Under the pieces are notes generated by a model that was not told the DNA's origin, made no database searches, and worked only from the letters and a program-made list of their open reading frames with translations. This document shows positions 21,253 to 25,234 of a DNA stretch of 30,476 nucleotides, piece by piece. The stretch is from a virus: the IMG/VR virus record IMGVR_UViG_3300022074_000240, positions 1 through 30,476 of that record. One strand, 5' to 3'. Positions within the stretch are counted from its first letter, which is position 1. Each line of letters starts with the position of its first letter. A program made the translations under genes and the position numbers.

Positions 21253-21306
21253 GATTTCCTTTCAAAAAAAAAATTCCCAAAAATTGGAAAATAGTTTTGT
21301 GGTCCA

Positions 21307-21363
21307 CCCCCTATATCGCAGTAGGGGGCGGGGGGGATAAGGTCGTTTTTTTCCAGACCCCCC
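21307..21363. other. Structured G/C-run spacer between replication and packaging genes
   Basis: The 159-base gap (21253-21411) contains a dense set of homopolymeric G and C runs in an otherwise A/T-rich genome. CCCCCTA (21307-21313) pairs with TAGGGGG (21322-21328). Next comes a run of seven G (21330-21336) that can pair with six C (21358-21363) around a T-tract. The four runs can also pair in alternative ways. Flanks hold two further short dyads (AAACCA...TGGTTT and CCAA...TTGG). Candidates are an attenuator, a packaging site, or a messenger-processing element; the sequence alone does not decide. Confidence 0.6.
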
Positions 21364-21411
21364 GTATTAAATACAAACCATATACGTTGGTTTGCAGTTT
21401 GTAAACAATAG

Positions 21412-22269
21412 TCATGGCCTAGTGCTTCTGGCTATAGCTTTTACAAATCTTTCTAAATCATCATCATTATTATTCTTAGGTTTATTCAGCATCATCCTAT
21501 TGAAATACTTAATACTCCTGGGCATTTCCTGTCTTGGAAAGAACTTACCTTTGTACCATTGCAGCAATCTATGTAGCTTCCTAACTATCTGTTCGTACTC
21601 CATACCAGATTGTAACCAAGAGATAGCAATATTGATGTGATTATCATTGAATGTGAAATACTGGCCAGAAAGTTCCTCAGTCTTACGTTGCCATTGTATT
21701 AGTATCTCTTTACCCTTAATATATATATCATTGTTAATTGAGGTGTTATGTATTCCTTCTGAGTGCATACTTCGTATTCCTTCTGAGGGAATATCTGCAT
21801 TACCATTACCTCTACGATTATTCCTTGAGGGAATACTTTTCTTCTTCTTATCCACAGGCTTGTCCGTCATCTTAGGACCTTCTGGGAACTCTAATGGCTC
21901 TTCATCGGACCTCTCTGTTGCAGTCGCTATGGCCTTGGCATCCTCTTCACTAATCGCATTATCAAACACCATGAAGTATTTATTGCCCTTGAGTCCAGGA
22001 TGCTTCTTGGCGTACTTCAGATACCCAAACTCCATGAGCTTCTTGATGTGCTTACTCACGGATGGTTGACCGATGCCCATGATCTTACCAATGGTAATTT
22101 GATTGGGCCAACAGACACCTTGACGATTGGTATAATTACCTAACATCGCTAAGACTCTGAACGTCTGAGGGAACCTCTTGAAACGTTGATCTACGACAGC
22201 AGACTGTGCCAACACACAGAAGTACCCAGGAGTCTTTCCCTTACCGTAGTCCTTCTTTTCATTTGACAT
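21412..22269 (-). CDS. Winged-helix replication initiator-like protein (lambda O type)
   Basis: From ATG 22269 this gives 285 residues; a start at 22299 would add ten residues. Residues 34-98 form a winged helix-turn-helix (FRVLAMLGNYTNRQGVCWPNQITIG, as LAMLGNYTNRQGVCWPNQ, then QPSVSKHIKKLMEFGYLKY), the arrangement of phage O-like initiators and HTH_36 proteins. Residues 105-180 are a hydrophilic linker encoded by repeated DNA (candidate origin). Residues 190-285 form a C-terminal helical domain (HINIAISWLQSGMEYEQIVRKLHRLLQWYKG) that could contact a helicase or loader. It probably melts the origin and recruits host DnaB. The start overlaps the DnaA-like stop by 11 bases. Confidence 0.7.
   Translation of the reverse strand: MSNEKKDYGKGKTPGYFCVLAQSAVVDQRFKRFPQTFRVLAMLGNYTNRQGVCWPNQITIGKIMGIGQPSVSKHIKKLMEFGYLKYAKKHPGLKGNKYFMVFDNAISEEDAKAIATATERSDEEPLEFPEGPKMTDKPVDKKKKSIPSRNNRRGNGNADIPSEGIRSMHSEGIHNTSINNDIYIKGKEILIQWQRKTEELSGQYFTFNDNHINIAISWLQSGMEYEQIVRKLHRLLQWYKGKFFPRQEMPRSIKYFNRMMLNKPKNNNDDDLERFVKAIARSTRP
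21701..21856. other. Candidate replication origin inside the initiator gene
   Basis: Within the linker-coding part lie three related repeats: TATTCCTTCTGAGTGCATA (21751-21769), TATTCCTTCTGAGGGAATA (21775-21793) and TATTCCTTGAGGGAATA (21819-21835). The last two are perfect TATTCC/GGAATA dyads. On one side is a perfect DnaA box TTATCCACA (21848-21856). On the other is an A/T-rich stretch with an (AT)n core (21701-21741). DnaA box, iterons and A/T-rich element in the initiator gene reproduce the lambda O/ori plan. Function is inferred from architecture. Confidence 0.6.
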
Positions 22270-22618
22270 CAAACATCTTTTCAATCGTTGCCAGATCACC
22301 TGGTTGATGTTTGTTAAGATAATGCATAACGCTTGTATGATCCTTGTTAATACTTCTAGCTATCATCGTAAGCGTAACCTTCTCAGAACAATGCTTCATC
22401 GCTAAATGAGCAAAGTCTATTCGTGCTAACACAAATGGTCTGGCTCTGCATGGACCTTCCAATTGCTCTATTGTTAAACCATGAAAGACACTTACAGCTT
22501 TCTTTAACTGTGAGAGTTTAGGTACATACTGATTAGGACCAGAAGAACCAACAAGAGTATTTTTTAAACTACGAATAAAAAGTATTTCATCGGATGTAAG
22601 ACTAGGAACATAACTCAC
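22259..22618 (-). CDS. Stand-alone DnaA domain IV-like DNA-binding protein
   Basis: A 119-residue protein whose residues 58-104 resemble domain IV of the bacterial initiator DnaA: an ARPFVLARIDFAHLAMKH helix, a VTLTMIARSI helix, then DHTSVMHYLNK (residues 93-103). This last block matches the DnaA signature helix (DHTTV) that reads the DnaA box. No AAA+ ATPase or other DnaA domains are present, and the N-terminal 55 residues are unfamiliar. It probably binds DnaA boxes, either helping phage initiation or competing with host DnaA. It is translated in a DUF3310 - DnaA-like - initiator series with 4- and 11-base overlaps. Confidence 0.72.
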   Translation of the reverse strand: MSYVPSLTSDEILFIRSLKNTLVGSSGPNQYVPKLSQLKKAVSVFHGLTIEQLEGPCRARPFVLARIDFAHLAMKHCSEKVTLTMIARSINKDHTSVMHYLNKHQPGDLATIEKMFDVK

Positions 22619-22863
22619 TTTTCACCGTGCCTGTCAGTCATTAACCGCATTAATCTTTCAAGAAACCAATGAGCCTTACCTACTGCAACAGAGCCTGGTT
22701 CACCGTCTTTAACACCCATCCTTGATAGATATTTCATGGCTGATCCTTTGAGATAGCCTACAGCTTCGGGGTAACTCATTTGTGATAGTATGGCTTCTAT
22801 AGTCTCAATTCTCTGGCCATTTCCTTGTCTTTTGTAGTGATTTGGATTGATTTGATCAGTCAT
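22615..22863 (-). CDS. DUF3310 family protein
   Basis: An 82-residue protein with the DUF3310 signature: NPNHYKRQG near the start, IETIEAIL, GYLKGSAMKYLSRMG and KAHWFLERL. The family includes the C-terminal part of T7 gp1.7, a nucleotide kinase, and is common as a small stand-alone phage protein; whether this short form is catalytic is not known. It is the first leftward gene after the divergent promoter region, with an AGAGGT ribosome site just before its ATG, and overlaps the DnaA-like gene by 4 bases. Confidence 0.88.
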   Translation of the reverse strand: MTDQINPNHYKRQGNGQRIETIEAILSQMSYPEAVGYLKGSAMKYLSRMGVKDGEPGSVAVGKAHWFLERLMRLMTDRHGEK

Positions 22864-22970
22864 ATTACCTCTTTGTTAATATATTTTGTAAAATGTGAAT
22901 AATATATATTGCAAATACTGTTTTGATGTTTATATGTATATAGAACATAACAAGAAAAGGAATAGAACTA
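22864..22970. promoter_or_regulatory. Divergent promoter/control region
   Basis: A 107-base, very A/T-rich gap separates the leftward replication block from the rightward recombination block and must hold both promoters. Leftward, TTGCAA followed 18 bases later by TACAAA is a possible sigma-70 pair; rightward candidates (TTGCAA or TTGATG with TATATG/TATATA) are weak. A DnaA-box match, TTATTCACA on the minus strand (22894-22902), lies between the two starts. About two TTATNCACA matches are expected by chance in 30 kb, so only its position makes it notable. Confidence 0.5.
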
Positions 22971-23702
22971 ATGCCTAAGAAATCATTCTTTCAAGATGCT
23001 TCAGAGTTAATGGGTAACAGTAAAGCTGGTAAAGCACACTACGGAAAGTATGTTGCGTACTACCGTGTATCAACAAAGAAACAAGGTGATACAGGTTATG
23101 GTTTAGAAGCACAGCAGAAAGCAGTCCAGGATCATTTAAACGGTGGTCGCTGGAAGTTAGTAGGGGAGTTTACTGAGGTAGAGAGTGGTCGTAACAATAG
23201 ACGGATGCAATTTAAAGAAGCATTAAAACTATGTAAAAAAACAGGTGCTAAACTTATTGTTGCAAAGCTAGATCGTTTATCCAGGAATTTATTATTCCTT
23301 GCTACTTTGATGGAGTCTGGCGTAGAATTTATTTGTTGTGATATGCCACAAGCCAATAAGTTAACCCTACAAATTATGGGTGCTATGGCAGAAGATGAGA
23401 GTTCTAGGATAAGAAAAAGAACCAAGGATGCATTAGCAGTAGCCAAGGCTAAAGGCGTTAAATTAGGCAATCCCCATGAGAATCTACGCTTAAAAGCTGG
23501 TAAAAAGGGGAACAAGGCCCAGAATGAAGAAGCTAATATTTTTGCTTGGGAGATACTACCTTTGATTGACGGGATAAAGGCTTCTGGCTTATCATCATTA
23601 AAAGATATTGCAGACGCATTAAATGCAAGAGGGGTTACTACACAGCGTGGTGGTACTTGGTATCCATCTACGGTGTCTAATATTTTAAAGAGGAGGAAGT
23701 AA
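22971..23702 (+). CDS. Serine recombinase (resolvase/invertase family)
   Basis: A 243-residue site-specific recombinase. The catalytic domain (residues 26-165) shows VAYYRVSTKKQGD with nucleophile Ser34 and Arg32, the VAKLDRLSRN motif (Asp101, Arg102, Arg105) and the E-helix start MAEDESSRIRKRTKDAL. A short C-terminal DNA-binding region has IADALNARGVTTQRGGTWYPSTVSNILK, similar to the start of the Recombinase domain of larger serine integrases, but the protein stops there. It could invert, resolve or integrate DNA; no paired inverted sites around a fiber gene were seen. It is first in the rightward operon, with an AAAGGA-type ribosome site, and its stop overlaps the next ATG (TAATG). Confidence 0.9.
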   Translation: MPKKSFFQDASELMGNSKAGKAHYGKYVAYYRVSTKKQGDTGYGLEAQQKAVQDHLNGGRWKLVGEFTEVESGRNNRRMQFKEALKLCKKTGAKLIVAKLDRLSRNLLFLATLMESGVEFICCDMPQANKLTLQIMGAMAEDESSRIRKRTKDALAVAKAKGVKLGNPHENLRLKAGKKGNKAQNEEANIFAWEILPLIDGIKASGLSSLKDIADALNARGVTTQRGGTWYPSTVSNILKRRK

Positions 23703-24212: not shown

Positions 24213-24262
24213 AGTATATTTACTGACTATTATTTTATGTATTTGTGTGCTGTGGTTACACT

Positions 24263-25234
24263 ATGAATAATCTGATTAAAAAAGATAGTTCTAAACATTT
24301 AAAGATTAAGGATTTACAAAAAGAAGCCATATATTATGCCAAACAGAGTGTGGCTGAGAATACAAAGAGGGCGTACACAGCCGATTGGAATGCCTTTGTA
24401 TCTTTTTGCAAAGATTATGATGTCAATCCATTACCAGCAAGTTATGAAAATATTGCTCATTTCCTGGTTAGAGAAGCTAGGACCTTAAAACATTCTACAC
24501 TACAAAGACGATTAGGCGTTATTCGTACCTATCACCGATTAAAAGGTCATTACCTGGACCCGCATCATCCCGTGTTAGAGTCGGTGTGGCGTGGAATTAA
24601 GCGTGTCAAGGGAACAAAAACAGAAAGTAAAGAAGCCATTTGGACCTCAGATTTAAAGAAGTTTATTGATGTATTAGAATATCATAGCATTGGTAATATA
24701 CGAGATAGAGCAGTTTTATTATTTGGGTTTTTATCGGCTCAACGAAGAGAGAATATAGCGGAAGTACGTCTAGAAGATTTAACTTTTAGTCCGCAAGGTA
24801 TTATCTGGAAGATGCCTAAATCCAAGACTGATCAAAGCGGAGAGGGAACCTTAATTCCAATTCCTTATATGCGTACTCCTAAGTATTGTGCGGTAACCCA
24901 ATTGGATAATTGGCTGCGTGTTAGTGGTATTAAAGAGGGGTATGTGTTTAGACGTATTTTTAAGAATAATGCTGTCAATGAGAAAGACCAGCCTATTTGC
25001 GGGGCTACCGTAAATGGTATTGTAAAGAGAACAGCTAAAATAGCGGGGTATAATCCAGAGAAGTATGGGGGCCATAGCCTTCGTATTGGCTTTATTAGTC
25101 AAACCAGAAATACCAATGCTCCCGATCATACCATTATGAAAGTCACAGGCCACCGTGATACCCGCATGATTGATCATTATGCCCAGGAAGGTAATATCTT
25201 TCAAAACTTAGCTACCCATAAACTACGCTTATAA
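24263..25234 (+). CDS. Tyrosine recombinase/integrase
   Basis: A 323-residue protein from ATG 24263; a GTG at 24245 would add six residues. Neither start has a good ribosome site. Numbering from 24245, residues 20-110 are a SAM-like core-binding domain (SVAENTKRAYTADWNAFVSFC). The catalytic domain follows: Arg167/168 (LSAQRRENIAEV), Lys194 (PKSKTDQ), His277 and Arg280 (GGHSLRIGF), His303 (VTGHRDTRMIDHY) and nucleophile Tyr312. All active-site positions are present. It probably integrates the phage or moves its own gene. The flanking direct repeats begin exactly at the neighbouring stop codons. An SOS-type box lies 65 bases past its stop. Confidence 0.93.
   Translation: MNNLIKKDSSKHLKIKDLQKEAIYYAKQSVAENTKRAYTADWNAFVSFCKDYDVNPLPASYENIAHFLVREARTLKHSTLQRRLGVIRTYHRLKGHYLDPHHPVLESVWRGIKRVKGTKTESKEAIWTSDLKKFIDVLEYHSIGNIRDRAVLLFGFLSAQRRENIAEVRLEDLTFSPQGIIWKMPKSKTDQSGEGTLIPIPYMRTPKYCAVTQLDNWLRVSGIKEGYVFRRIFKNNAVNEKDQPICGATVNGIVKRTAKIAGYNPEKYGGHSLRIGFISQTRNTNAPDHTIMKVTGHRDTRMIDHYAQEGNIFQNLATHKLRL

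Follow-up and report, generated by a model that had tools for sequence, protein, structure and literature searches.

The virus record of 30,476 bases analysed here (the window; 30.5 kb) very probably has an initiator-bound replication origin inside its initiator gene, in the part that encodes the protein's linker. Three dyad iterons lie in this part of the gene next to a conserved A/T-rich element. By analogy with lambda, the Stx phages, SPP1 and plasmid pSK41, whose demonstrated origins follow the same plan, replication would start at this site.

The initiator gene and its surroundings

The initiator gene occupies positions 21412..22269 on the minus strand (ATG at 22269) and encodes an O-like winged-helix protein of 285 aa. 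In the Pfam scan, HTH_36 alone passes the cut-off (2.3e-8), and the PHROG matches range from 2.5e-9 to ~3e-9 (replication initiation PHROG_270, 2.5e-9; O-like PHROG_391, 3.2e-9), which bears out the earlier note's placement of the repeats inside a winged-helix initiator gene. The AlphaFold2 model of the protein is moderate, with a mean pLDDT of 65. It predicts a winged-helix domain at residues ~20-102 (21964..22212, minus strand; pLDDT ~74-87 over most of it), in which HTH_36 covers residues 35-84 and residues 68-81 form the predicted recognition helix (22027..22068, minus strand). A linker predicted to be disordered (residues 116-179) leads to a C-terminal helical domain at residues 179-283 (21421..21735, minus strand; pLDDT ~76-87 at residues 181-260, then lower), which is presumed to contact the helicase or its loader. 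For this domain, no relative of known structure was identifiable by sequence or fold search; the fold search gave weak winged-helix matches only, among them 4pt7, "Structure of initiator" (E 0.61). RepA_N and DnaD-like domains were sought in the initiator by sequence, with no RepA or DnaD match. About 100 homologues came from viral contigs, and none from the bacterial genome contigs searched.

The portal, capsid, tail tubular A/B and internal virion proteins are of podovirus type by their PHROG matches and are held in common with phage MEP301, to whose MCP that of the window is 64% identical. The T7-type virion assumed earlier is thus confirmed. No P-type helicase loader was recognised among the window proteins scanned, MEP301 and several relatives being ~4 kb longer than the window. 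Positions 22971-23702 and 24260-25234 hold a serine recombinase and a tyrosine integrase, both present in this phage, and the rightward gene cluster includes a RecE-like exonuclease, an ERF annealing protein and a LexA-like DNA-binding protein. Past the initiator gene, the intergenic region 21253-21411 contains long A and G/C runs and a CCCCCTA...TAGGGGG hairpin; a scan of this region for a classical terminator found none.

The iterons and their distribution

The three related dyad repeats reported at 21751, 21775 and 21819 lie at exactly these coordinates, with their dyads on the gene-sense (minus) strand. Along the gene, a DnaA box is followed by iteron 1 (TATTCC-CTCAA-GGAATA, 21819..21835), iteron 2 (TATTCC-CTCAGAA-GGAATA, 21775..21793) and iteron 3 (TATGCA-CTCAGAA-GGAATA, 21751..21769), all on the minus strand, and then by the A/T-rich stretch. 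All three iterons fall in the linker-coding part of the gene, where iteron 1 encodes the peptide SIPSRNN in the window. The pattern TATKCM-N7-GGAATA has three matches in the 30.5-kb window, all within two iteron sites, where 0.02 would be expected by chance. Outside the initiator gene, the strict iteron pattern is absent from the window and has 0 occurrences in 117 kb of relatives, compared with 24 within the gene; the pattern, like the division into two types described below, was defined after viewing the sequences, and its controls are the reading-frame, permutation and column-scan results.

The earlier note had regarded homologues without repeats at this place as evidence against an origin. 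Such homologues do exist, but only in the distant subfamily L194-L205 and in MEP301 gp55, where iterons were not found in the gene. In the subfamily L194-L205, the linker is shorter and position 73 carries different residues, so these homologues do not contradict the origin reading for the clade of the window. Iterons sought elsewhere in this subfamily revealed no obvious origin. Dispersed repeats of CATTGTTCTATTTCCTTTC were seen in L200 (6100-8700) and L201 (6300-7850), in many copies; they may represent conserved promoter or translation-start elements of the opposite strand. An iteron array of the window's type was likewise not found in MEP301 or in the pelagiphages that carry a DnaA-domain-IV gene. 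In the pelagiphage HTVC100P (L210), gp12, annotated as a transcriptional regulator, contains a direct repeat, AACGGCTATCTTGTGT / AACGGCTATCTGGGGT, 22 nt apart (2811-2848), and these repeats are possible embedded iterons in pelagiphages.

Probable recognition of the iterons by the initiator

The relatives have two iteron types, TATTC...GAATA and TATGCA...TACATA. Residue 73 of the initiator, which falls within the predicted recognition helix, matches the iteron type in 69/69 scorable genes, with 3 ties: the first type goes with Lys, the second with Arg. In the window the residue is Lys (codon 22051-22053, minus strand). In a scan of all columns outside the linker, residue 73 was the sole perfectly segregating one, the next best reaching 0.913. 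The tree places four changes at this residue, and the 3 well-supported independent pairs are all concordant; a phylogeny-aware sign test gives p = 0.25, the 3-4 independent K/R switches being too few for significance. Among tree neighbours, L044 (Arg) differs from L022 and L135 (Lys) in both the residue and the sites. At position 4 of the half-site, G accompanies Arg and T accompanies Lys, and the pairing of Arg with G would be chemically sensible as an Arg-guanine contact. The left half-sites are looser than the right ones, with TATT in some Arg phages and TATG in some Lys phages. As the half-sites change together with a residue of the recognition helix, the initiator most likely reads the iterons in its own gene.

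Binding of this kind could also serve autoregulation or copy control, the initiator acting as a road-block in its operon rather than starting replication. The covariation of residue 73 bears on binding only, and autoregulation is frequent among lambda-type and plasmid initiators. However, the sites lie >430 nt inside the gene and not at a promoter, and no strict site occurs elsewhere in the window or in the 117 kb of relatives. Moreover, the strongest synonymous constraint falls on the A/T-rich stretch past the iterons, for which autoregulation has no need. We therefore consider it unlikely that the iterons serve autoregulation instead of an origin.

Spacing of the iterons and the A/T-rich element

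The centres of iterons 1 and 2 are 43-43.5, 64.5 or 32.5 bp apart, depending on the lineage, and iterons 2 and 3 are 24-25 bp apart. The spacings of iterons 1 and 2 differ by whole helical turns: all equal n + 0.1 turns of 10.5 bp, an agreement with a chance of ~0.015 given three length classes.

Next to iteron 3, an A/T-rich, synonymously constrained element (CATAAC N9 AACAAT-ATATATAT) extends over codons 174-192 (21694..21750, minus strand). Its motif CATAAC-N9-AACA was found in 19 of the 21 diverged representatives used for comparison, where synonymous permutation predicts 2.8. The (AT)n-rich stretch of the earlier note is thus real and conserved in sequence, but it is not richer in A+T than coding predicts: the best 42-nt stretch reaches 0.796 against an expected 0.780 (mean of the relatives). 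High A+T alone, being within synonymous expectation, was accordingly rejected as evidence of an origin. The significance of the stretch lies in its conserved sequence, not in its composition, and 21694-21750 is a candidate unwinding element.

It is very unlikely that the iterons and DnaA boxes merely load an initiator complex and that melting and initiation take place at another A/T-rich region, such as 21253-21411 with its long A runs or 22864-22970 with a DnaA-box consensus, given that a conserved and synonymously constrained A/T-rich element directly abuts iteron 3, as in lambda. GC skew was rejected as an origin marker; its sign change near 22.9 kb, at the divergent promoters, merely tracks gene orientation.

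Selection on the DNA of the iteron region

The 21 representatives, taken from IMG/VR, were compared with synonymous permutations of their own genes. They contain 51 iterons, about four times the 12.8 expected, and no more than 23 were reached in 500 permutations. For 17 linkers, the count is 41 against 7.9, and for the window's own gene it is 3 against 0.62 (p = 0.013). The iteron word is read in different frames. In most lineages, iteron 1 lies in frame 0 and encodes YSLRRNT, YSPRVNN or YAPRVHN; frame 2 yields DIHSEGLH or SIPSRNN; and frame 1, the third reading frame, in which iteron 2 lies in L118 and L120, yields IFTQTAY. Examples are TATTCACTCAGAAGGAATACA for YSLRRNT (L009), ATGCACTCAGAAGGAATACAT for MHSEGIH (window) and ATATTCACTCAGACTGCATAT for IFTQTAY (L118). 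One DNA word in three frames across phages excludes selection on the peptide as its cause, so the earlier view of coding pressure as a weak explanation can be put more strongly: frame and permutation tests refute selection on the protein alone.

Where diverged relatives have the same amino acid at a position, their codons agree in 46% of cases in the N-terminal part of the gene and in 50% in the C-terminal part. The figure rises to 81% over iterons 2 and 3 (codons 159-173) and to 85% over the A/T-rich stretch (codons 174-192). Across the gene, 7 close relatives diverge by 5-13%, yet 0/55 iteron bases have changed in any of them. Permutation, reading frame and codon identity all answer positively the question, raised by the earlier note, of whether the repeats are conserved beyond the needs of the protein. 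Judged by this comparison of homologues, the iterons and the adjoining A/T-rich stretch are demonstrably selected as DNA.

Such selection could also maintain a packaging, partition or recombination element bound by another phage protein, for example the small terminase subunit, and the packaging genes do come next in the same leftward gene cluster. The chance of this is very slim, as the half-sites follow a residue of the initiator and the site is found within the initiator gene in all lineages with this linker. Almost no credence can be given to the repeats being a by-product of a repetitive hydrophilic linker under selection as protein alone: the peptides DIHSEGIH / DIPSEGI do recur and show partial conservation, but the same word encodes unrelated peptides, the dyads vanish under synonymous permutation and the peak of codon identity falls exactly on the iterons and the A/T-rich stretch.

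DnaA boxes and the DnaA-domain-IV protein

The perfect DnaA box TTATCCACA that the earlier note had placed at 21848..21856 (plus strand), adjoining iteron 1, is exact, but it is not a constant part of the origin and is absent from most lineages. The word TTATNCACA occurs 2 times in the window against 2.65 expected, so the box by itself is no more than chance would give. The box is exact in 3/8 of the nearest phages, and one base change removes it in 5/7 of the nearest relatives; these losses, together with its absence from most lineages, rule out the DnaA box as a constant part. A second consensus box, TTATTCACA, lies in the divergent intergenic region (22894..22902, minus strand) and is also present in L003.

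Exact TGTGGATAA boxes were found in 11 linkers from five lineages and nowhere else in these genes. Their carriers are only the window, L007, L008, L024, L030/31, L051 and L118-120/L193. For the 21 representatives, the count is 8 against 0.67 by synonymous permutation. The exact boxes mostly occur where iteron 1 is absent, as in L024, L030 and L051, and L118 and L120 have two in tandem. In the sequences compared, a DnaA box recurs beside or in place of iteron 1 without being a fixed feature.

A gene for a small protein consisting of DnaA domain IV only (22259..22618, minus strand; Bac_DnaA_C 9.4e-9) overlaps the start of the initiator gene. Its syntenic neighbour is a DUF3310 gene (22615..22863, minus strand), and the order DUF3310 - DnaA-IV - initiator is conserved. 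Most lineages have a protein of 160-190 residues with DnaA domain IV at the same place (matches to 1.1e-21). A gene of this kind directly upstream of the initiator in most lineages is a new observation. In the close relative L003 (5553-6008), a strongly diverged version (Pfam 0.016) takes its place, although the initiator is 96% identical. In L073 (5444-6001), a gene resembling, by eye, an MT-A70-type adenine methyltransferase lies between the DnaA-IV gene and the initiator.

The DnaA-IV gene was not found in L030-L038 or L119/L193. Exact host-type boxes occur in L030/31 and L119/L193 among these lineages, but not in L032-L038. As some lineages without the gene bear exact host-type boxes at the place of iteron 1, the phages may alternate between a DnaA stub of their own and the DnaA of the host; a role of the DnaA-IV protein as a dedicated co-initiator, replacing host DnaA at the embedded origin, is a tentative and rather doubtful proposal. 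A diverged box for the phage DnaA-IV protein was sought in linkers without a canonical box, with no excess of near-matches (11 versus 11.8).

Proposed course of initiation and its significance

An initiator dimer would bind each dyad iteron, and the complexes on iterons 1, 2 and 3 would stack because the iteron spacing keeps helical phase. The adjacent element (21694-21750) would melt, and the C-terminal helical domain may bring in the helicase and replisome of the host, because the window has no recognised gene for a polymerase, primase or helicase. In some lineages, a protein binding the DnaA box, either host DnaA or the upstream domain-IV protein, would dock beside or in place of iteron 1 and aid opening.

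No polymerase is recognised in MEP301, the nearest isolate of this marine T7-like group, and the replication start of such phages is undescribed. A candidate origin, its initiator and the base that is likely contacted can now be named from the sequence. The family offers a natural experiment in the coevolution of initiator and iterons, in which one residue of the recognition helix and the matching half-site change, and in which the iteron region is constrained doubly, as protein and as DNA. It also suggests a role, open to testing, for the DnaA-domain-IV orphans of marine phages.

Comparison with known systems

The iterons of iteron plasmids generally lie outside the initiator gene and are mostly direct repeats bound by monomers, whereas those of the window are dyads inside the gene. 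Plasmids P1, F, RK2, pSC101 and R6K combine iterons, a DnaA box and an A/T-rich region with helical phasing (PMC5043065), and the window has all of these too. In the RepA_N rep gene of pSK41, the winged-helix N-terminus binds boxes central in its own gene, the central domain encoded by ori serves as a linker, and the helical C-terminus serves host recruitment (PMC5703833). The N-terminus of pPR9 Rep is HTH_36 (Pfam PF13730), the same family that the window's initiator matches, but the C-terminal domain of the latter lacks detectable sequence similarity to solved RepA/DnaD structures.

The orphan DnaA-domain-IV proteins of pelagiphages (HTVC100P gp21, Greip gp42, Skadi) are of the same small type and share the D-H-T-T motif. 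Unlike in the window, no relative of its initiator was found beside the DnaA-IV gene in the pelagiphage isolates examined.

In the lytic phage SPP1, oriL has repeats and an A/T-rich unwinding element within gene 38, the gene of the origin-binding protein (PMC6316719), a likeness to the window. SPP1, in contrast, has its own helicase loader, a helicase and a second origin, oriR, none of which was recognised in the window.

The ori of lambda and the Stx phages has inverted-repeat iterons of ~19 bp midway along the initiator gene O, an adjoining A/T-rich element and a linker encoded by ori (PMC7466680, PMC5043065). The window shares the O-like initiator, the mid-gene dyad iterons, the adjoining A/T-rich element and the ori-encoded linker. 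It differs from lambda in that its three iterons are unrelated in sequence to those of lambda and unevenly spaced (43, then 24 bp), in the DnaA box beside the iterons in some lineages of its family, and in its T7-type virion and upstream DnaA-domain-IV gene, with no P-type loader gene seen. The kind of origin, embedded in the initiator gene as in lambda, is therefore already known; the version that the window probably carries is new.
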